64,000 nucleotides of DNA from Eudorina sp. 2006-703-Eu-15 (Eukaryota; Chlorophyta; Chlorophyceae; Chlamydomonadales; Volvocaceae), in NCBI GenBank assembly GCA_003117195.1, contig BDSI01000012.1, positions 1,121,316 to 1,185,315 of the forward strand, written 5' to 3'. A program made the translations under genes and the position numbers. The number at the start of each line of letters is the position of its first letter. Within the stretch, counting starts at the first letter, position 1. This document shows, piece after piece, positions 1,182 to 37,668 of the stretch. The notes beneath the pieces were generated by a model. That model was not told where the DNA came from and did not search any database. It was given only the letters and a program-made list of their open reading frames with translations.

Positions 1182-2795
1182 CTGCGACGTACATGGCATG
1201 GTTAGCTGTCGTAAATAAGCTGCGGGCCAGGTCCTCATTGGATTGCGCGCGCCGGGTCACGCTGGCAGACTTCTCTGGTGCGGCTGAAGAAACCCCTTCC
1301 TCGTCGGCAGGTCTGACTGTCATTCGAGCAGAACAGATACTTCGGCTAGTCAAAATTTTCAGGTAGGGCTTGGGTTCCAAGACGAAACCTCACTGTCTAC
1401 CGTTTCAACAGCCCAACAAAGAGCCCCGATGCGCTACAAGCTAGCGTTTCCGAGCGCCTGCAAATGTGTCCATACTATGAAATCCCCTGACCAACAGATA
1501 TCCGGCACAAACCGAGCGGTAACTAAAGTGCCAAGCGAAAGAAGTAACACAGCACAAGCTCATCCCCTAAAGTTGTACCGAGCAATTGTCGTAAAATTAA
1601 ACTTGTAGTAACCACTCCTATAGAGAAGATGTGATGGTTACGTGAACTACCACTGATGGCAACCGGCCGGCCGTAGTGTACGGCTCCCAGTTTAATTCAG
1701 TAGTAGTCGCAGGTTCGATTCCTGTACAGATCCCCGACGGAAGTCGGGTATGAGATACCAGCTAGTTGCTGAGATGTGGTGTTGAGGCTTAGTTGATGGG
1801 CCAAGATACGCACGCTTGATTGGTGGCGATGCCGAACCCTCAAACTCGAAGGATGGTCGGGTGAACGGATATGGCGGAGATCGTGAAACGGTTACGATGG
1901 TAACTGGTGCGGGAAGATCGTGATGAGCGGCCTTTGACGGATGTCCGTTGCGGAGCCACATGTGACTGGCCGGACGGTCAGTACAACATGTAACATTCCA
2001 TTCCATAAATTCAGTAGAGTTAGATCAGGTCAGTTCTGACTTTACATGCTACTAAGCTTGCAGTTCATGGAGCGTCATTCATCGGTGTGGGAAGGGGTTG
2101 TTTGAATCCTGTATGTACTTCACGAGCCGCAATGAGACTTTCTGCAACAAGCTGTTTCAGTGCCATTTGCCGCACGAGCTCATTTCCTACATCGTTTATT
2201 GCACAAGAGTTATGCCGAATTCTGAATCAGCTTTGTCACGTGGTACTGCCATATGTCAACCATGTTTCGCCGAACAGAGGAACTATGCAAAGCAAACTGT
2301 TAGTGCTCTGTTCATGAAAGGACGCTCACAGTTTAGGTTTTTTGGCCATGAGAACGTTGCCTTTATTTATAAACCTTTGCTGCAGCATACAGCAGGACAC
2401 CGGCGTTGTCACGGTACTCAAGTCCATACAAGCAGATGCAGCCCCAGCACTTAAGTCCAACGGTGGTCCTTCGATTATACAACGGTAAACCTTTGGTCCT
2501 ACCATCGACGCCATTGCTCACACTGCAGTCGTCCAATTGCCGGACGTGGCCTCTGAAGACCCGAGCATAAGCCATTAAAATTTGTCGGATACCTTGAGAA
2601 CATGACCGACGGGCTCTGCAAAGATTTGGCTACAGCTAAGGTACATCTCTTCGTCGCAGCCGCAGCCTGGTGTTCCTAAACGCGCCGATGCAATACAGAT
2701 GACACCGTTGGGCTCTGCAAAAATGGACAGATGCAACAGCCATAGTCAGCCAAACACCAACAAACGACGGTCATGTCCCTCGGCCCATCAACTGC
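1182..2795. other. Intergenic stretch with no supportable gene
   Basis: This lies between the start of the left-edge gene and the probable 3' end of the TRF4-like gene. Base composition is clearly lower in GC than in the flanking genes, and short reading frames on both strands are interrupted, lack splice-site context and resemble no family I know. The one recognisable piece is a tRNA-like T-arm near 1709-1725, listed separately. The rest may be promoter sequence and decayed mobile DNA. Confidence 0.5.
1640..1740 (+). mobile_element. tRNA-like B-box/T-arm, possible SINE fragment
   Basis: Positions 1709-1725 form a perfect tRNA T-arm: a five-base stem GCAGG (1709-1713), loop TTCGATT (1714-1720) and pairing strand CCTGT (1721-1725). 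This contains a match to the RNA polymerase III B-box GGTTCGATTCC. A loose A-box-like stretch (GCCGTAGTGTACGGC) lies about 35 bases upstream. I find no matching acceptor-stem strand for the bases after the T-arm and no anticodon arm, so it is not an intact tRNA gene. A tRNA-derived SINE or decayed tRNA copy is the simplest reading. Confidence 0.3.
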
Positions 2796-18872: not shown

Positions 18873-19642
18873 CTACGCGTAGTCCGCCCCATGAGACCTG
18901 TCGCTCTGACCTTGCCGCGGCGGCGGCTCTGCCGCGCCCCCACTGCCGCCGCCATAGCCCAGCTCCTGCAGCACCTGCCGTACCCGCGCACACTCGGGGC
19001 CACCCAACGGCTCCACCCGGCCCCGGTCACCGCCGACCCCCTCCTCCCGTCGTCCGAGAGGGACACCGTCGGCGGTGGCACGCCCCGGTACGGCATCGTC
19101 ACGCTCACCACCGCCGCCGCCGCCGCCGTCGTCGCGGCCGCTGCCGCGCAGACGCTCCTGCACCGCGTCCGCCAGTACCCTTCCGGGGCTGGCCCCCGTC
19201 GCCTTGTAAGCCTCCAACTGCACGGACCAACCAGATGGCACACGGGTACGGCATCTGACGGCGTCGCACCCTTCACGCGGCGGCCACCACTGCTCCCCCG
19301 AAAAGCGTCTGCGCATACCTCCCAGCTCCCACCCACCCGCCACCCGCCCACCCACCCGCCCACCCGCCCACAAACCCGCCCACCCGCCCACACACCCGCC
19401 CACCCGCCCACCCCACCAGGTCCACCAGCTGTCCTCCGTCCAGTCGGTGCAGCTCCGAAATGATGTTGCGACCGATGGCGTCCAACACAGCCTGCGACGA
19501 CGACGGCAACAGCGCCAGAGGTAATGGTAATGGTAATGGTAATGGTCTTCTACTTGCCTTATACTTTGCGACCTGACGGGAGGTGGGGATGGATGTCTTG
19601 CTTGACGTGACGGGGATTAGGGGCAGCAACGGGACCGGTCGG

Positions 19643-19673
<31 letters not shown>

Positions 19674-22139
19674 AGTCATCAAGGCCTGCTACCGGCTTGC
19701 CAACAGGGAGTGTGTGCCGTGTAGCGGTGTGAGCGACCCGGAGGAGCTCACTTCGGGACCACGGCGCTCGGCCCCCGGTGTCGTCCTGTCCCCCCCCACT
19801 GCCGCGCTGTCGCCCCGCCGCACACCCCGCCGCACACCCCGCCGCACACCCACCTCGTCCTCCACCCGCAGACGGCCCAGGCTGCGCGCCACCACCGTGG
19901 CCTGCGCCGGCGTGAGCCGCTCCGCACCCGCCACCACCATGCCTGTGCAGGCGGGACAGGTGGGTGGGTGAGTGGGTGCTGTCCGCACGCCGGCGCTCAT
20001 TCCCCGAACACACTCTTTGCCTTCCTCAGGTACCGGTAGTAATCTTACCGTTGGTAGCTATGATTGTCGCCGGGCTGCGTGTGCCTGGGCAGTTTGCATT
20101 TAAATCCCCGGCAGTTTTCATTGTATCCCTGGTGCTTGCAGATCTGGCCTGGTCCTCGTTGGGTTGCTGCTGCGCCCGCGGGGCCCCTACCCCCCTTCAA
20201 CGACCGACCGACCGACCGACCGACCGACCGACCGACCGTCCGGCTCCGATCTCCTCCTTTCCCCGCCCCCGCCCCCGCCCTTCCCCCCCCGGCCTCGTGT
20301 CCTCGGTGACAGCCGATTAGCAGTACGGTCCAGTGTACACAACACGGTGCACGGCAGTTGTCGTACAGCCCGGTACAGCACGGTACGGCACTTACTGAGC
20401 AGCGACTGGAAGGTGTTGTGTCGGGCCACCCGCCGCCGGGCGTCCTCCTCCGCCTCGGGGCCGCCGCGGTCGCTGCCGCCGCCGCCGCCGCCGCTGTGCC
20501 CCAGAGGGCTCGGCGGCTGCTGCTGTTCGCAGGCGTCCGCCACCGCCTGCAGCGCCGCCACCAGCGCGTCCTCGTCGAAGTCGTGACCGCTTCGCTCCAC
20601 CACCTGATGGCGCACGGCGGCAGGGACGCGGTCCGACGAATGGCGACTTTGAAGGCCGGTGGGCCGGTGGGTTCTCTTACGGGTCAAGAACGCCACCCAT
20701 CCATCCATCCATCCGTCCGTCCATCCACCTTGCATCGGCCGTACCTCCACCTCAGAACCTACCCCTCCGCCACTCACCGCAGCCCACGGGGCATCCCGCC
20801 TCACCTGCAGCACCCCCTCCGGCCCGGCCTCCTCCCGCGCCGCCAGGGCCAGCAGCGCCGACAGCGCCGACCTGCCCGCCGAGCCGCCGGGCGCCCGCGA
20901 GCGGCTGTCGGGCTGGTCGGGGCTGAAGCGCTCCTGCCGGGGGGGGAAACAGGGAGACGCGACCCGTGGGTCAATGGCGGGTTAAGCGGGCTCTCACGGA
21001 CGTGGCGAGGGGCCAGCGAGCGAACTGCCGTACACCAGACGCGGACCACGGCGCGGCGCGGCGCGGTCACGTCGCGGATATGTGTCACGGCGGGGCAGGG
21101 GAGACACCCCCGGCCCCGGGATGGCTGAGAGAGGGCGCCTCTCCGGCCCCTGACCTTGTCTACTCGCACCCCATGCCTCGGCCCCATGAGGAGGACATAT
21201 CCAGGTCCGACGTTCCCCCGCCCCACTCGCAACCGCCCAACTCACAGTCTCGCAGTCACACACACACACACTCACCCCCGCCCCACTCACCCCCGCCCCA
21301 CTCACCCCCGCCCCACTCACCCCCGCCCCACTCACCCCCGCCCCACTCACCCCCGCGACGGCCTCCTGAGTGCCCACCCGCGGCACGTCACCGTCGTCCT
21401 CCCCGCTCCTGCCGCCCCTGCTCCTGCTACTGCCGCCGCCGCCACTGCCGCTCCCGCTGCTTCTACTTCCGCTCGCGGCGCCGCGGGATGGCGCACTGGA
21501 TGACTCACGGGATGCGAACGCGGCCGGCGACAGCCGTCCCGGCCACGTCGTCATAGGTGACGTGTGGTGCTGCCGGTGTCGCGGCGGCGCTGACCCTGGT
21601 GGCCACGGCGGCGCGTTCGCCGCACCCCGGGCCGCCCGCCACATCACCTGCCGTACGCGTGCGCCGAGGGCTTGCGTCGGTGTGGCGATCGGGCGAGACG
21701 TCACTGACCCACGGGTCACCGGTGGCTCGTCGCGGTGGGCTGGATCCTTGACCTGGCCGCACGGTCCCGCGCAGAGCGACCCCGCGCTTACCGTGGCGGC
21801 GGCAGTACCACCGGCAGTACCGGCAGTACCGGCAGTACCGGCAGTACCAGCAGTACCAGCAGTACCAGCAGCAGGCAGATGTGCAGGCCTGTTGTCGATG
21901 GAAGAGGCCTCGGGCTGGGGAGGCCCTGACTGCTGTGGCGGCAGCTGCTGGGAATCCCCTACGGGAGGAGATGGCAAAGCTGACAGCACGGAAAGGGGCA
22001 TCCGGGTCTGCGAACCCGCTGTGAGGTCGGTGGGGAGCTGTCGGGACGTTTCAGCTGCTGCGTGGGCGGCCAGCGCGCAGCGCGGCCAGAGGGCTCGGCG
22101 GGCGGCGCCCGCGGCCGCGACAAAGGACCGGATGGTCAT
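18873..22139 (-). CDS. Putative organellar helical-repeat protein (FASTK/RAP or OPR-like)
   Basis: Six exons: 22139-21351, 20933-20805, 20603-20396, 19942-19854, 19491-19417, 19217-18873; 1635 nt, 544 residues, phases consistent. The ATG at 22139 gives MTIRSFVAAAGAARRALWPR, a good Arg/Ala-rich organelle transit peptide; the frame extends upstream only to a TTG. After about 240 residues of low-complexity sequence come amphipathic helical units: DEDALVAALQAVADACEQ, RLTPAQATVVARSLGRLRV, AVLDAIGRNIISELHRLDGG and QLVDLLEAYKATGASPGRVL. These resemble the degenerate helical repeats of FAST-kinase/RAP or octotricopeptide proteins that bind organellar RNA. No C-terminal RAP domain is visible; the protein ends in Gly/Arg/Asp-rich sequence. 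The family call is tentative; the exon structure is better supported than the function. Confidence 0.6.
19520..19545. repeat. TAATGG hexamer repeat
   Basis: Four or more copies of GGTAATGG in the intron between exons 4 and 5 (gene sense, upstream of exon 5) of the helical-repeat gene. Confidence 0.8.
20200..20237. repeat. (CGAC)n microsatellite
   Basis: Nine uninterrupted CGAC tetramers in the intron between exons 3 and 4 of the helical-repeat gene. An ATCC tetramer repeat lies nearby at about 20699-20726. Confidence 0.9.
21271..21350 (-). repeat. Tandem copies of the intron 1 5' splice site, 15-bp period
   Basis: On the gene strand the intron opens with GTGAGTGGGGCGGGG repeated. GTGAG begins at 21350, 21335, 21320, 21305, 21290 and 21275. 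The first is the modelled donor. The 15-base unit keeps the reading frame and contains no stop, so each later donor would add five residues (Val-Ser-Gly-Ala-Gly type). Confidence 0.9.
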
Positions 22140-23298: not shown

Positions 23299-26200
23299 AT
23301 GGCGCAGCGCAGCGTCGCCCGGCGCCTAGGCGCCGCGGCCCCGCCCGCGGCCGTGCCGCCGTTCAAGGGCGACGAGGGGCTGGGGACCCCGGGACCCAAC
23401 GACCCGGTGATCAAGCGGGTGGGTGCTGGGTGGCCGTGGGTGCCAAGAGGTGAAGGGCACGCACCTGGAGGGCCGGGCTGGTGGTGGTGCGCGGAGGGAA
23501 CCTGGCGGGGCGGGCTCACCGCGCCGGACGCCTTGTTCCGGGTTTGTTTCGAGTTTGGCTCTCTTCAGGCTTTTGTCTCCCGTTCCCAAACCCCACGAGC
23601 GCCCTCCCGCCCTCGGAGCCGTACACCGCAATGGGTCGGGTGCTGGTGCCACGTCCTGGACCATACAGACCAGGGGCCAACGACCAACGACCAACGGCCA
23701 GCCGCTCACCAACGATGACGCCCCAGCTGTCCCGCCCTGCCCCTGACGTCCCGCGCCCGCGTGCAGGCGGCCGAGCAGGCGCAGGCCCAAGCCCAGTCCC
23801 AGTCCCAGGCCCTGCCTGGCCCCGGAGAGGCCGGCTCCGAGTACGGCAGCCAGACGGGCCTTGTGTTCCAGCCGCTGGGTGAGGTGCGGCCCATCGTGGC
23901 CGACATGGACAAGCAGCTGATGGACCCCACCCTGGAGCTGGGGCGGGCGGCCACCCGGTGGGTCGGACCGACCAGGGGGTGCAGGGGGAGGCGGGTCGGG
24001 CTCGGGGCGGACTCGATCACCACCGTACTGCGGAGGTGGGAGGCGGGTGGCCTCCGCTGCTTGACCTTTCAGGTCAGCCGTTTCAGGGTGGTGTCCACAG
24101 GCTTGTGTCGTCGGTGACCTGCATGACCGGGTGTCCCGGAATCCCCGGTTCGCGCAGGTCGCTGGCGCGGAGCAGCTACGCGGTCGATCTGGAGGCGGCG
24201 TTCAACGAGCAGATCAAGTGCGTGACAGGGCAGGGCAGGGCAGATCAAGTGCGTGACAGGGCAGGGCAGATCAAGTGCGTGACAGGGCAGGGCAGATCAA
24301 GTGCGTGACAGGGCAGGGCAGATCAAGTGCGTGACAGGGCAGGGCAGATCAAGTGCGTGACAGGGCAGGGCAGATCAAGTGCGTGACAGGGCAGGGCAGA
24401 TCAAGTGCGTGACAGGGCAGGGCAGATCAAGTGCGTGACAGGGCAGGGCAGATCAAGTGCGTGACAGGGCAGGGCAGATCAAGTGCGTGACAGGGCAGGG
24501 CAGATCAAGTGCGTGACAGGGCAGGGCAGATCAAGTGCGTGACAGGGCAGGGCAGATCAAGTGCGTGACAGGGCAGGGCAGATCAAGTGCGTGACAGGGC
24601 AGGGCAGATCAAGTGCGTGACAGGGCAGGGCAGATCAAGTGCGTGACAGGGCAGGGCAGATCAAGTGCGTGACAGGGCAGGGCAGATCAAGTGCGTGACA
24701 GGGCAGGGCAGATCAAGTGCGTGACAGGGCAGGGCAGGGGGGGACCAGACCGAGCGCTGCCGGTAATCCAGCATGACAGGCCCGCGGGGCCCGGAGCGCC
24801 CAGGAGGGCAAGGGGGGGTCCGGGGAGGAGGGCGGCGACGGACAACGAAATGTGGCGCACTCCACCTTCATCCAAGTACCGGTACTGTAACTCTGTCAGT
24901 GCCTGGACAGCCGGCAGGCCCAGGCCACGGGACTCCTCAACACCTGCGCACGAGGAGCCGTGTGCCGTCGAGGTGGAGGGAGGGAGGGATGGGACCCGCG
25001 TCGCCCCGGTCCCGGTGGTGGTGACCCCTAGCGCTACCCCGCGCCAGCGCCGCCCCCTCCCCGCTGCACCGTGCACCCGCTGCCCCGACCTCTCCTCCAC
25101 CGCCCCACCTCAGTGCGACCCCACCCTGCGGCCGCTGGACTTGCAGCCCACCCCGCCCGCTGTGCCCGCCCCGGACCTCCCACCCAGGACCGCTTTCCAA
25201 ACTCGTTTTCCTCATTTTCCTGACATCCAAAGTGCGGAGATCCACCGAATGTATTTGATGTGTCTTTTGAGTCGCGCAGAAGGTCTCCGGCGGGAGGTTC
25301 CGGAGCCGCCTCCTCCCGATCCGTTCCAATCCGACCCCGCACGTCACCCCTCCACCTCTTACCCCGGCTTTTCCCCCTGCTTGTTTCGACGCACTGCTTT
25401 TCCTCTGCCTGGGACCTACTCTGCGCCGTGGCCCCCGTACTGCCGTACCCCGTACGACCCGTACAGCATCGAGCTGACCATGAGCTACGTCTACACGTCC
25501 ATGTACGCCTTCTTCTCGCGGGACGACGTTGGACTGCCGGGCTTCGCCGCCTACTTCCGCCACAACAGCGAGGAGGAGCGAGACCACGCCCGCCTGCTCA
25601 TGGACTACCAGGTGGGAGGGTGGGTGGGCGGGTCGCTGAGGGTGGGTACTTGAGGCCGGAGAGGTAAAGTGTGCGTGTGTGTATGTGTGTGTATGTGTGT
25701 GTGTGTGGGGGGGGGGGTATATGTGATCCTTACATATCTGACCGGGCCCGACGCTGGTCAAGGGCTGCAAACCCAGCCTTAACGGAAAGACCGCCGGAGC
25801 ACTCTCTCCCGGATACGGGGGTGAGGTACCGTATGTGTGTGTGTGTGTGTGTGTTTTAGGGCGGGAGAGTACGGGGTGTTGCAGAGGCGCAGGCAGTTGG
25901 GATTGCTGCAAGCTGGGATGTGAAGGTGGCAGTAGCTTCGAGTAGGGGTCGCACAGGCCAGCACAGGCCAGCCCAGGACAGGACGAGCAGTCTCCCGCGG
26001 GTGGGTCCCGTCGTCGAGTCCGTACGGCGGTCGTACTACACCGGGGGTCCTTCCTTCCAACCCACCTCACCTGCCGCCCCCTCCCGCTGTCAATCACGCA
26101 AACCGATACCCGCATTCCATCGCCCACAGCGCACCCCTTCCAACCCCGAACCTACCCCTGAACCCTCCCAAACCCCGACAGACCCAGCGGGGCGGCCGCG

Positions 26201-27312
26201 TGCGACTGCTCCCCATCTCACCGCCGGAGACCGAGTACTGGCACGCCGGTGGGTCGGGTCGAAGGGGGGATTGGGTGTACGGCCCCCTTGTACGGAAGTC
26301 CGGCTTCCAACGGACGTCAGTCGTACCACCAGTCTCTCAGTAAGGCCACACGAGCGCACACCGCTCACAAGCGGCTTGCTGCCAGAGTGTGTCCGACCTG
26401 CACCTCGCACCTGCTGACCGCCGCTCCACCCCTGCCCTGCCCTGCCCTGCCCTGCCCCCCTCCGATGTTTCTCAACCAAGTTCCTATGCCCCCCTCCACC
26501 TTCTTGCTCCTCCGCAACGTCTTTCCCATCCCCCGCCCTCTCCTTCCTGGCCCCAGAGAAGGGCGACGCGCTCCACGCCACCGAGCTGGCCCTCAGCCTG
26601 GAGAAGCTGAACTTCACCAAGCTGCGGGAGCTGCACGCCGTGGCCACCGCCGCGGGGGATGCGGACGCCACCCACTTCCTCGAGGACTACCTGCTGCACC
26701 AGCAGGTGGGGCCGCATGGGGACTTGGGGAGGCGCATGGGGAGGCGCATGGGGGGCGGAGGAGCAGAGGGGGGGGGGGGCGGAGGCCCGGAGGTGCGGGG
26801 GCGGAGGGGCAGTCCTGGGGGCGAGCTGGGGTAGGGGTGGGGCTGTCGGGCCTGCAGCGTGGGGCCGGTGTCGTGTCGGCAACTTGTGTGCGCCCAACCA
26901 CTGTTGCTGCAGTTCCTCCCCCCTTGCCTGAGTGCGGGCGGCGCAAGCCCATTCACCGCCCCGGCCGCTCAGCAATCCCACCACACCCCGCTTCATTTGA
27001 TCTCAGCCCCACCAGCACGGCACGCAAGGAATTTCTGCTCCCAATCTGATGGACTGACGGACGGACGGACGGACCTGCACCCTGAGGCCTGTCCCGCACG
27101 GTAGTACGGCACCCGTACCCCAGTGAACCCCACCACCGTCCCCGCGGCCCCTGGCCCCCCCCTCCCCGCCCACCTACCAACAGTCCAAGGACGTCAAGGA
27201 GGCTGCCGTACTGGTCAGCCGGGTACACCGGGCGGGTCGGGGCCACGGGGTGTTCCACGTGGACCATCTGCTGAGCGAAGAGTACGGCGACAAGGACGGC
27301 GTGGCGGCATAA
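23299..27312 (+). CDS. FER: Ferritin, plastid (plant) type
   Basis: Seven exons: 23299-23418, 23767-23957, 24158-24217, 25467-25611, 26188-26248, 26557-26705, 27184-27312; 855 nt, 284 residues, all phases consistent. An Arg/Ala-rich transit peptide and a Gln-rich linker precede the plant-ferritin extension peptide (GLVFQPLGEVRPIVADMD). The ferroxidase residues are present: Glu126 (EQINIE), Tyr133 (SYVY), Glu161 and His164 (SEEERDHA), and Glu208 (ALSLEKLN). Other conserved blocks are RGGRVRLL and HAEKGDALHATELALSLEKL, and the C-terminus GHGVFHVDHLL. The protein should assemble into the 24-subunit iron store of the chloroplast. The segment between RGGRV and HAEKGD is diverged from land-plant forms. 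Intron 3 is filled by a tandem array of its own donor site. Exon 5 is only 61 nt. Confidence 0.95.
24211..24740 (+). repeat. 26-bp tandem array made of the ferritin exon 3 end plus 5' splice site, 20 copies
   Basis: AGATCAAGTGCGTGACAGGG recurs 20 times. The first copy spans the exon 3/intron 3 junction (exon ends at 24217). The second is 31 bases on, and the remaining 18 follow at exact 26-base intervals, the last GATCAA starting at 24711. Every copy carries the same donor, AA/GTGCGT, so potential donors lie at 24218, 24249, 24275 and so on to 24717. Copies are nearly identical, implying recent expansion or homogenisation. Confidence 0.97.
25670..25860. repeat. Two (GT)n-rich microsatellites
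   Basis: GT-rich tracts at about 25671-25708 and 25832-25855 in intron 4 of ferritin. Confidence 0.85.
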
Positions 27313-28462: not shown

Positions 28463-31400
28463 ATGATGTCCAAGTTAGAAGCTCCAGGAATCAGCAGTGA
28501 TGGAGCACCTCGCGGGCTGACAACACCATCGCGGCGATACAGAGAGCTCGTGGAAACAGTGCTTTTAGTGTTATTTTGGTACGCGGTTAATATCAGTAAG
28601 TACAGGTGTTCCAGGAAGTTCTGGGATGCGGTGGGTTCTGTTTGTTGCTTGTTCTTGAAGAAGTTGCTTGTTGGAGCCTGTCCACGAATCAGACGGAATG
28701 GCGGACGACGTAATTCATGTGTGAAGCGGGTTATGATAAATAAATATTCTGGATTCAGTCGCGACAGCTGGGCTGGCTGTCGCTTCATCCGGCCAGCTGC
28801 CGTTGAGTTTGTGCAGACGGCACGGCAATCTTTTAGGTTTGTAGCCTTGCTCTGTGCAGCTTGTCGGATTGGCTGCGGGACTCTGAACACTGATCGCGGG
28901 TGTGCTGCTAGTCGCCTCCTCAGTTCTCTCTTCCTTAGCCTTCCTCTACCATCCCTCCACGCCAACCAACTTCGCTCAATGCCCCTCCCTCCGTCCATCC
29001 ACCTCTCCCTGGCCCCTTAACCTCCATGCCCTCTCCCCGCCCCGCCCCCGGCCCCGCCCCGCACCCCGTCCCACCCAGGTCTGATCATCTCCAACAAATG
29101 GCTCATCTCCAATACCGGCTTCCACAGCACCTCTCTGCTCACCCTGCTGCACATGCTGTCCAGCTGCGTCGCCTCCAACACGCTGCTGGGACTGGGGTTC
29201 GTGCCGCGGCGGCGGGTCGGCTGGCAGTTGCTGCTCCGTGTGGGGGTGTTGGCCGCCTCCTTCACGATCTCGGTGGCCACATGCATGGCATCGCTCATCT
29301 ACCTGCCGGCCAGCTTCGTGCAGGCGTTGGGTGCGTCGGTCGGGGTTGGGGTGGGGTGGGGTCGGGGTTGGGTGCGTCGGTCGGGGCCAGGCGGGGTGGG
29401 GTCGGGGTTGGGGGTTGGGGAGGGGGGCCACAGAAAGAAATGGGGGAGGCAGGCGCGTGTGGGGGTTCTGCGGACAAAAAGGATGGCTTCTAGGCAGGCA
29501 AGCAGGCAGGCAGACAGGCAGGCAGGGAAGAGGCAGGGAGAGATGCAGGCAAGCCATGGTGGGTCAGGCTGTGATATGGGGCCGGGTGCAGGCCCCCCGG
29601 GTGCAGGCCCCCGGGTGCAGGCCCCCCGGGTGCAGGCCCCCCGGGTGCAGCCCCCCGGGTGCAGGCCCCCCGGTGCAGGCCCCCCGGGTGCAGGCCCCCC
29701 GGGTGCAGGCCCCCCGGGTGCAGGCCCCCCCGGGTGCAGGCCCCCCGGGTGCCCCCCGGGTGCAGGCCCCCGGGTGCAGGCCCCCCGGGTGCAGGCCCCC
29801 CGGGTGCAGGCCCCCGGGTGCAGTGCAGCGCCCCCGGGTGCAGGCCCCCCGGTGGCCCCCCCGGGTGCAGGCCCCCCGGGTGCGATCAGTTCTGGTGTTT
29901 GGAACGAGAGTTCTGATTCGGAGGGCGCTGGATGGGGGGTGCCCAGGCGATGCCGTAAACCGGGAAAGGGCCAAAAACTGGGGTCGAGGGAGGGGCACGC
30001 GGCGGATGCAGCTGTGATGATATGCAGGCCCTGCGGAGGAGCGCGGACTGTGCCCATCGCATGGCAGACACACACACACACACACACACGGTGTGACACG
30101 GTTCTGCTTACTCGCGGCTCAGCTTTTCTCCTTGCTAACACACACACACACACACACACTCCTGTCTTGCCTACTCATGGCCACACACGCACACGTCCGG
30201 GTGGCCTGGGCGGGCCTGGGTGGGTCCAACATTAAGCACACGTCCGGGTGGACGGTCGAACAGCAGCAAAGGCAATGCCCCTTCATCCGGCGGGCGAGAG
30301 GCCGGCAGGGGGCAGCGACAATCACTGCGCGCGGCATGGGCCGCCCGGGCATGTATCCGCGCTGTCCGACAATACCGGCCGGGCATCAGACTCGTGAAGG
30401 AATCGTGTGGCGGGTATCGCCGCCGCCGTGTCAGCCCCAGCCCCTTAATCTGAGGTAACGTCACTCCCGGGCTCTCCCCGTGCCCGCCGCACCCTCACCT
30501 TGACCAACGCCGCACCCTCCCCGACCTCCCCACCCTTCCTATGCCCCCCCCAGGCTCCACCACCCCCGGCTTCACCGCCGTGTTGGCCTTCCTGATCCAG
30601 GGCCGCCGGGAGGCCGCGGTGACGTACGCGGCGCTGCTGCCCGTGGTGGTGGGCATCGTCCTGGCCTCGGGCGGGGAGCCGATGTTCAGTTTGGCGGGGC
30701 TGCTGCTGCAGATCGTGGCTTGCCTGTTTAGGAGCTTCAAGACGGTGCTGCAGGTGGGTGGGGCGGCGCGGCAGGGAGGGGAGGGCAGGACGGGGTGCAG
30801 GGGCGCGATTGCGCTGGCTTTATCAATCGCAAAGGGGAAGAAAGGGGGTGGGGGCGCCGGAGAGCAGGGAGCTGGATGGCGGGGGAAGTTGGGGAATAGG
30901 AAATTGGTAGACATATTCGGGCAGGGGGTGGTGGTCAAGGTGAGGGCCCTGTGCGGGGAAGTGGAAGTGGGAGCTGTCTGGTGGGCGCTCTAGAAATGGG
31001 AGGGATGCCGCAGGTAGGCCCAATGTTGGTGGGTGGAAAGGAGGCGGGGGACGCGCGGGCGCTAGGGGTGTCTAGGTAGGGTGGGGGGGTGTGCGGGAGA
31101 GGGGATCGGTGGGGGGAGGGCCACGGCCGTGGGGCCGGTGGGGCGGTGTGCTGTGCTGTGCTTTGCTGCTAGGCGCGCGAGTGAGGGGGCAGGAGGGGCC
31201 CGGGTAGCCCAGGGGACAGGACGACCGCGGGTCCATGGGCCCATGGGTCGGACTGCGCGGTGCGGTGCCCTTACACCCTCTTTCAACAAAGACAGCGAAA
31301 CGCGAAAAAGTCACCGAAAGGGGCGTACTTGTCCGGGCGGCCGACAGCGTCGTTTTGCACCTGATGCTGCACCCAACCCTGTAGGGCCCCTCGGCCCCTC

Positions 31401-37585: not shown

Positions 37586-37668
37586 GCGGCAACACAAGCA
37601 GCAACACAAGCGGCAACTGCGGTGAGTTGCGGCAACACAAGCAGCAACACAAGCGGCAACTGCGGTGC
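37586..37668. repeat. 43-bp tandem duplication
   Basis: GCGGCAACACAAGCAGCAAC starts at 37586 and again at 37629, and the copies are nearly identical. Confidence 0.85.

Follow-up and report, generated by a model that had tools for sequence, protein, structure and literature searches.

Twenty identical 5' splice sites in tandem at an exon-intron junction of a Eudorina ferritin gene, a repeat array with the anatomy of a mirage

Turri et al. reportedly described in 1995 that the minisatellite of the human gene IFI6 provides multiple splice donors. In amphioxus, tandem repeats that span exon-intron boundaries have been named "mirages", and they occur in Adh3, in the globin genes BflGb6 and BflGb9 and in troponin C; PGBD5 carries similar ones. 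The arrays are reported to be unstable in length and to leave regular splicing undisturbed (PMC3087553, PMC3902484). In IFI6 (6-16/G1P3), two downstream repeat units serve as donors and three mRNAs result (PMC4526556). Here we describe an array in a ferritin gene of Eudorina sp. 2006-703-Eu-15 that by its anatomy fits the definition of a mirage. As in amphioxus, the repeat unit reaches across an exon-intron boundary and includes splice signals, and the structure is found in several genes of the genome (besides ferritin, these are the genes for a TPT-family transporter, an HSP70 and an Rce1-like protease, and probably an armadillo-like gene). Unlike the amphioxus cases, it belongs to a green alga, has 26-bp units (against about 150-160 bp in the amphioxus globins and 10-72 bp in Adh3), and carries 20 identical donors at a 5' boundary. 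It shares with IFI6 a minisatellite at the 5' splice site that supplies several donors, whereas the downstream donors are used in IFI6 and the conserved protein points to use of donor 1 in ferritin. It also resembles known tandem duplications that copy a splice signal, except that an existing intron is lengthened and no new intron position arises. No green-algal case was found in a literature search of open papers. The sequence-only reading had called expansion of a junction-spanning unit unusual, which stands in so far as the kind is rare; it is nevertheless a kind already described in amphioxus and IFI6, and one that recurs in the same genome.

The window, by which we mean the whole stretch of 64,000 nucleotides that was analysed, lies on contig C12 of a genome searched at 181.2 Mb in 3033 contigs (GC 63% in a 200-kb sample). 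The array occupies positions 24209..24737 of the + strand and consists of 20 donors, the first two 31 bp apart and the others at 26-bp spacings. AGATCAAGTGCGTG is present in 20 exact copies with starts from 24211 to 24710, the donor G stands at 24218, at 24249 (+31) and thereafter each 26 nt up to 24717, and TRF reports a repeat at 24231-24737 with a period of 26, 19.5 copies and 100% matches. The 31-nt first spacing corresponds to one additional GGGCA. Of each 26-bp unit, 9 nt are exon (GCAGATCAA) and 17 nt are intron, the donor being part of the latter. The 20 donors share one sequence from -9 to +21, and the 20 sites of AAGTGCGTG in the window are these same donors. The positions and identity of the donors claimed by the sequence-only reading were thus confirmed by the motif positions and TRF, as was its claim that the unit starts inside the exon, although the exon bases shared are nine and not the seven (AGATCAA) it had given. 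Copies of 26 bp that are 100% identical form the kind of array that is easiest to mis-assemble, and in amphioxus one mirage of the draft genome reportedly looked aberrantly assembled (PMC3087553). Still, we consider it very unlikely that the true locus has one or few copies, as the first spacing differs (31) and the flanks are distinct, an 11-copy array with internal differences was assembled elsewhere in the Rce1-like gene, and much longer simple arrays are present in the assembly.

Membership of the array in a dispersed repeat family was considered and rejected. The array query gave 62 further matches in the genome; TRF was run on four of the loci (L002, L003, L004 and L006), which contain (GGGCA)n microsatellites. 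At L004 (contig C1, about 1467902-1473730) a (CCCTG)n pentamer array spans all 3495 bases given to TRF, and the matches to the query around it extend across almost 6 kb. A genome-wide search for AAGTGCGTG-N5..35-AAGTGCGTG gave 98 matches against 11 for the reversed pattern (181-Mb genome); 19 are neighbours within the ferritin array, three are single pairs elsewhere and 76 represent one repeated word. The last are satellite-like, mostly with a period of about 2.4 kb and AAGTGCGTGCGTGCAAGTGCGTG once per period, and lie on contigs C189, C233, C385, C639, C965, C998, C1052, C1142, C1594, C1725 and C1834.

The gene carrying the array (23299..27312, + strand) has seven coding exons (23299-23418, 23767-23957, 24158-24217, 25467-25611, 26182-26248, 26557-26705 and 27184-27312, stop included) in one open frame of 286 aa, the start codon being our choice. 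Its product matches the Pfam ferritin domain PF00210 (E 5.5e-25) and the solved ferritin chain 3vnx (E 2.4e-57), whose sequence agrees with Ulva pertusa ferritin (P0060), and it is 72% identical to the ferritin of Volvox carteri, 72% to that of Pleodorina starrii and 73% to that of Chlamydomonas incerta. From the domain, the intact frame, the orthologs and 3vnx we identify the gene as a plant/algal-type ferritin, and by its closest relatives, which are from volvocine green algae, as one of the volvocine type.

Exon 3 (24158..24217, + strand, 60 nt) ends in GAGCAGATCAA, and intron 3 (24218..25466, 1249 nt) begins with the outermost donor GTGCGT (24218..24223, + strand), the one that retains the conserved protein, and ends in CCGTACAG|CATCGAG. 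With the boundary at 24217|24218, joining to 25467 gives a junction AA|C that encodes EQIN-IELTMSY, over which five of six close orthologs align free of gaps. The sixth, the ferritin of Edaphochlamys debaryana (P0005), has EQIK and then a gap of six residues exactly where intron 3 lies, which may be an annotation slip at this intron. On contig C35 a second ferritin gene reads AACGAGCAGATCAA|GTGAGTGACAG at the donor side and CACCAG|CATCGAG at the acceptor side, so the exon end, the intron position and the phase are identical. The orthologs and this paralog thus support the earlier proposal that exon 3 ends at the repeated motif, and the boundary within the array unit is placed by them. As the paralog has the boundary once, with a single donor and no array, the array is a derived feature of the gene in the window.

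The consequences of donor choice can be predicted by translating the splice forms. Donor 1 gives the normal conserved protein. Donor 2 (+31) shifts the frame, with no stop thereafter until the end of the CDS, and donor 4 (+83) shifts it and ends at codon 155 in a stop. Retention of the intron, like the use of donors 5-20, leads into an in-frame TGA at 24306-24308 (+ strand, codon 154). Donor 3 (+57) is the sole downstream form that is in frame and open, and it adds 19 residues; in total the subunit would be spoiled or altered in 19 of the 20 donor choices. The added lengths of 0, 31, 57 and 83 nt given by the sequence-only reading are correct, and it rightly held that of the additions just the 57-nt one keeps the frame and has no stop. 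It had also assigned the TGA to all later donors, which holds for forms 5-20 and fails for form 4. Its conclusion that a working ferritin requires the outermost copy holds as a deduction. Its alternative, in which the array would lower ferritin output, stays a conjecture. The 19-residue insertion would fall immediately before E126, which we take to be the ferroxidase glutamate of ferritin helix A, and ten other aligned ferritins have no insertion at that site. Both points speak against the idea that several copies are used constitutively as in IFI6, the in-frame 19-residue form among them as a minor long isoform. This idea draws on the identity of the donors, the open 57-nt form and the IFI6 precedent, and we regard it as unlikely.

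Since one sequence is common to all donors from -9 to +21, it is unable to explain a choice among them. We therefore considered what else could mark copy 1. Predicted RNA accessibility did not single it out: the unpaired probability in the predicted structure ranged from 0.0003 to 0.0015 across the 20 donors, with 0.0005 at copy 1 and the highest value, 0.0015, at copy 19. Exon 3 with the first copies is predicted to fold worse than shuffled sequences (z +2.28). Concealment of the later donors by RNA structure is supported by neither the accessibility nor the shuffles. The marks that are left to copy 1 would be those of context, namely the true exon upstream, the additional G-run of the first unit, the shortness of the exon and the earliest transcription. 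In mammals, where donors compete, SRSF1 is described as promoting the one proximal to the intron and hnRNP A1 the one distal to it (PMC5585400). The SRSF1 rule would choose copy 20, and clean use of copy 1 would therefore be informative.

Junction-spanning duplication is not confined to ferritin. In the next gene of the window, which encodes a TPT-family transporter, the exon end GTTGG and the donor GTGCGTCGG are present in two copies (29326..29412, + strand), with donors at 29331 and 29372 and the following exon from 30554. The duplication starts 5 nt within the exon, and the two exons, when joined, match PF03151 (E 3e-14). The same intron also holds a 15-bp array (CCGGGTGCAGGCCCC, about 20 copies) at 29582-29883. 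In an HSP70 gene (PF00012, E 3e-56; locus L032, contig C14:477434-477525, - strand), the intron begins with a 42-nt unit in three copies, followed by a decayed fourth, the unit consisting of the exon end, including 16 exon nt, and the donor; an in-frame TAG within the first unit would ruin all later donors. In an Rce1-like protease gene (joined exons PF02517, E 1.8e-17; locus L056, contig C30:248080-248420), a 28-nt unit of which about 21 nt are exon is repeated in 11 copies, and in two of the 11 the donor GT has become GC. In all three genes the outermost donor fits the conserved domain. An armadillo-like gene (L029, 1094-1187) has a 23-nt exon segment (1094-1116) repeated 71 nt further on (1165), inside a predicted intron with its donor at 1123 and the next exon at about 1472. 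Its Pfam matches are weak and under the curated cut-offs (best E 7.9e-5), and the sequence after the second copy is diverged, so we grade this single junction duplication as probable. Judged from these sequences, junction-spanning duplication recurs in the genome in three further domain-supported cases (TPT, HSP70 and Rce1-like) and one probable case.

How common such arrays are was approached with genome searches and a local survey. Three repeats of AGGTGAGT, the search that found the HSP70 locus, gave 6 matches against 29 for the reversed pattern, and genome-wide enrichment of donor-containing arrays is thus not seen with this pattern. Three repeats of AGGTGMGT, which found the Rce1-like locus, gave 78 matches against 36 for the reversed pattern, which is not a clean count since two simple repeats of 8 bp (C181 and C1613) account for 53 of them. 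The 78 matches represent 11 places, seven of which were inspected (C14, C30, C37, C43, C62, C111 and C136; C21, C181, C949 and C1613 were left out), and domain-supported junctions were found at two of the seven (C14 and C30). By inspection, the places on C62 and C43 resemble the opposite strand of genes; in the inspected flanks coding evidence was not found at C111 and C136, and C37 had no clear exon. The local survey covered 264 kb, that is, the window and 20 further 10-kb pieces, one of which includes 4005 bases of N; five of the 20 were non-arbitrary, as four flank the window and one contains the C35 paralog. TRF gave 188 rows with a period of at least 14, of which 12 had donor-like units, the ferritin and TPT junctions among them. 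Direct repeats of at least 18 nt within 200 nt formed 30 clusters, ten of which had their flanks inspected while the rest were judged from the repeat text. In a strict k-mer scan, donor words found ferritin only, reversed words found ferritin, and shuffled words found ferritin and one place in L016; the scan does not discriminate, as its controls also find ferritin, and it missed TPT because it requires 8 bases upstream of the donor. The 200 kb outside the window yielded one probable junction duplication (L029) and G-rich arrays at possible exon ends.

The G-rich short-unit arrays lie in the window at 19328-19413 and 21256-21356 (- strand), in L013 at 2100-2139 and in L022 at 2603-2651 (- strand). 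Each begins at the point where an open frame runs into a donor-like word, GTGGG or GTGAG, and they are possibly arrays at intron starts; three putative exons beside them were scanned and had no Pfam match. At 37586-37667 of the window there are two copies of a 43-bp unit, with GCGGTGAGTT at the end of the first and GCGGTGCGTG at that of the second; a donor-like word is present and no exon was recognised.

A further explanation would give the array a function as a splicing rheostat, in which some transcripts would be spliced at downstream donors and be degraded or make a defective subunit; ferritin output would then be set by the length of the array or by a regulator, for example an iron-responsive one. 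The use of downstream copies has its precedent in IFI6 (PMC4526556), a frameshift or an early stop follows from 18 of the 19 downstream donors, and decay is plausible for forms 4-20 as their stop sits 350-769 nt upstream of the last junction. No sequence feature pointing to regulation was seen, however, and nothing supports a link to iron. Moreover, the other ferritin gene (C35) lacks the array and unrelated genes carry the same structure, which favours a mutational over an iron-specific cause. We consider a rheostat very unlikely.

The explanation that we hold to be probable, with good confidence, is a mirage-type tandem duplication across the junction, in which the outermost donor is used and the array is carried as near-neutral intron cargo. 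In its favour are the exactness of the array, the junction as placed by orthologs and paralog, the preservation of the protein by donor 1 alone, the recurrence of the arrangement in other genes, the short words at copy boundaries and the undisturbed splicing reported for amphioxus mirages. Against it stand the identity of the donors, the predicted structure that fails to single out copy 1, the SRSF1 rule and the use of downstream copies in IFI6. The first copy may have arisen by end joining or slippage between the exonic GCAG and a GCAG of an intronic (GGGCA)n run, followed by expansion through unequal exchange or slippage, which was probably recent, as the 100% identity of the 26-bp copies suggests. 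Short words at the copy boundaries were recognised by inspection in ferritin (GCAG), TPT (GTTGG) and the Rce1-like gene (TGCGT). Judged by eye, they fit microhomology or slippage. In HSP70, where the array end is too decayed, microhomology was not clearly seen. Splicing would then commit to the 5'-most donor. As every copy past the first lies on the intron side, such splicing removes the array with no trace in the protein, and the array would therefore be tolerated as near-neutral cargo, possibly at the price of a low level of misspliced and decayed transcripts.

The case shows that lancelets are not alone in having repeats of the mirage type. More tentatively, and with somewhat less than even confidence, the alga may repeatedly make and tolerate junction-spanning donor arrays (2-20 copies, in at least four genes including HSP70) under a strong outermost-donor rule of its spliceosome, with clean splicing at any length. 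Such a rule would be opposite to the intron-proximal preference that SRSF1 promotes in mammals. The interest of the array and its companions lies in their being a natural experiment on 5' splice-site choice: with twenty identical donors, splice-site strength no longer varies, and RNA reads would directly gauge the effects of position and context. Copy numbers of 2, 3-4, 11 and 20 make the cases a natural series, and clean use of donor 1 throughout would support a rule of first-donor commitment in green algae.
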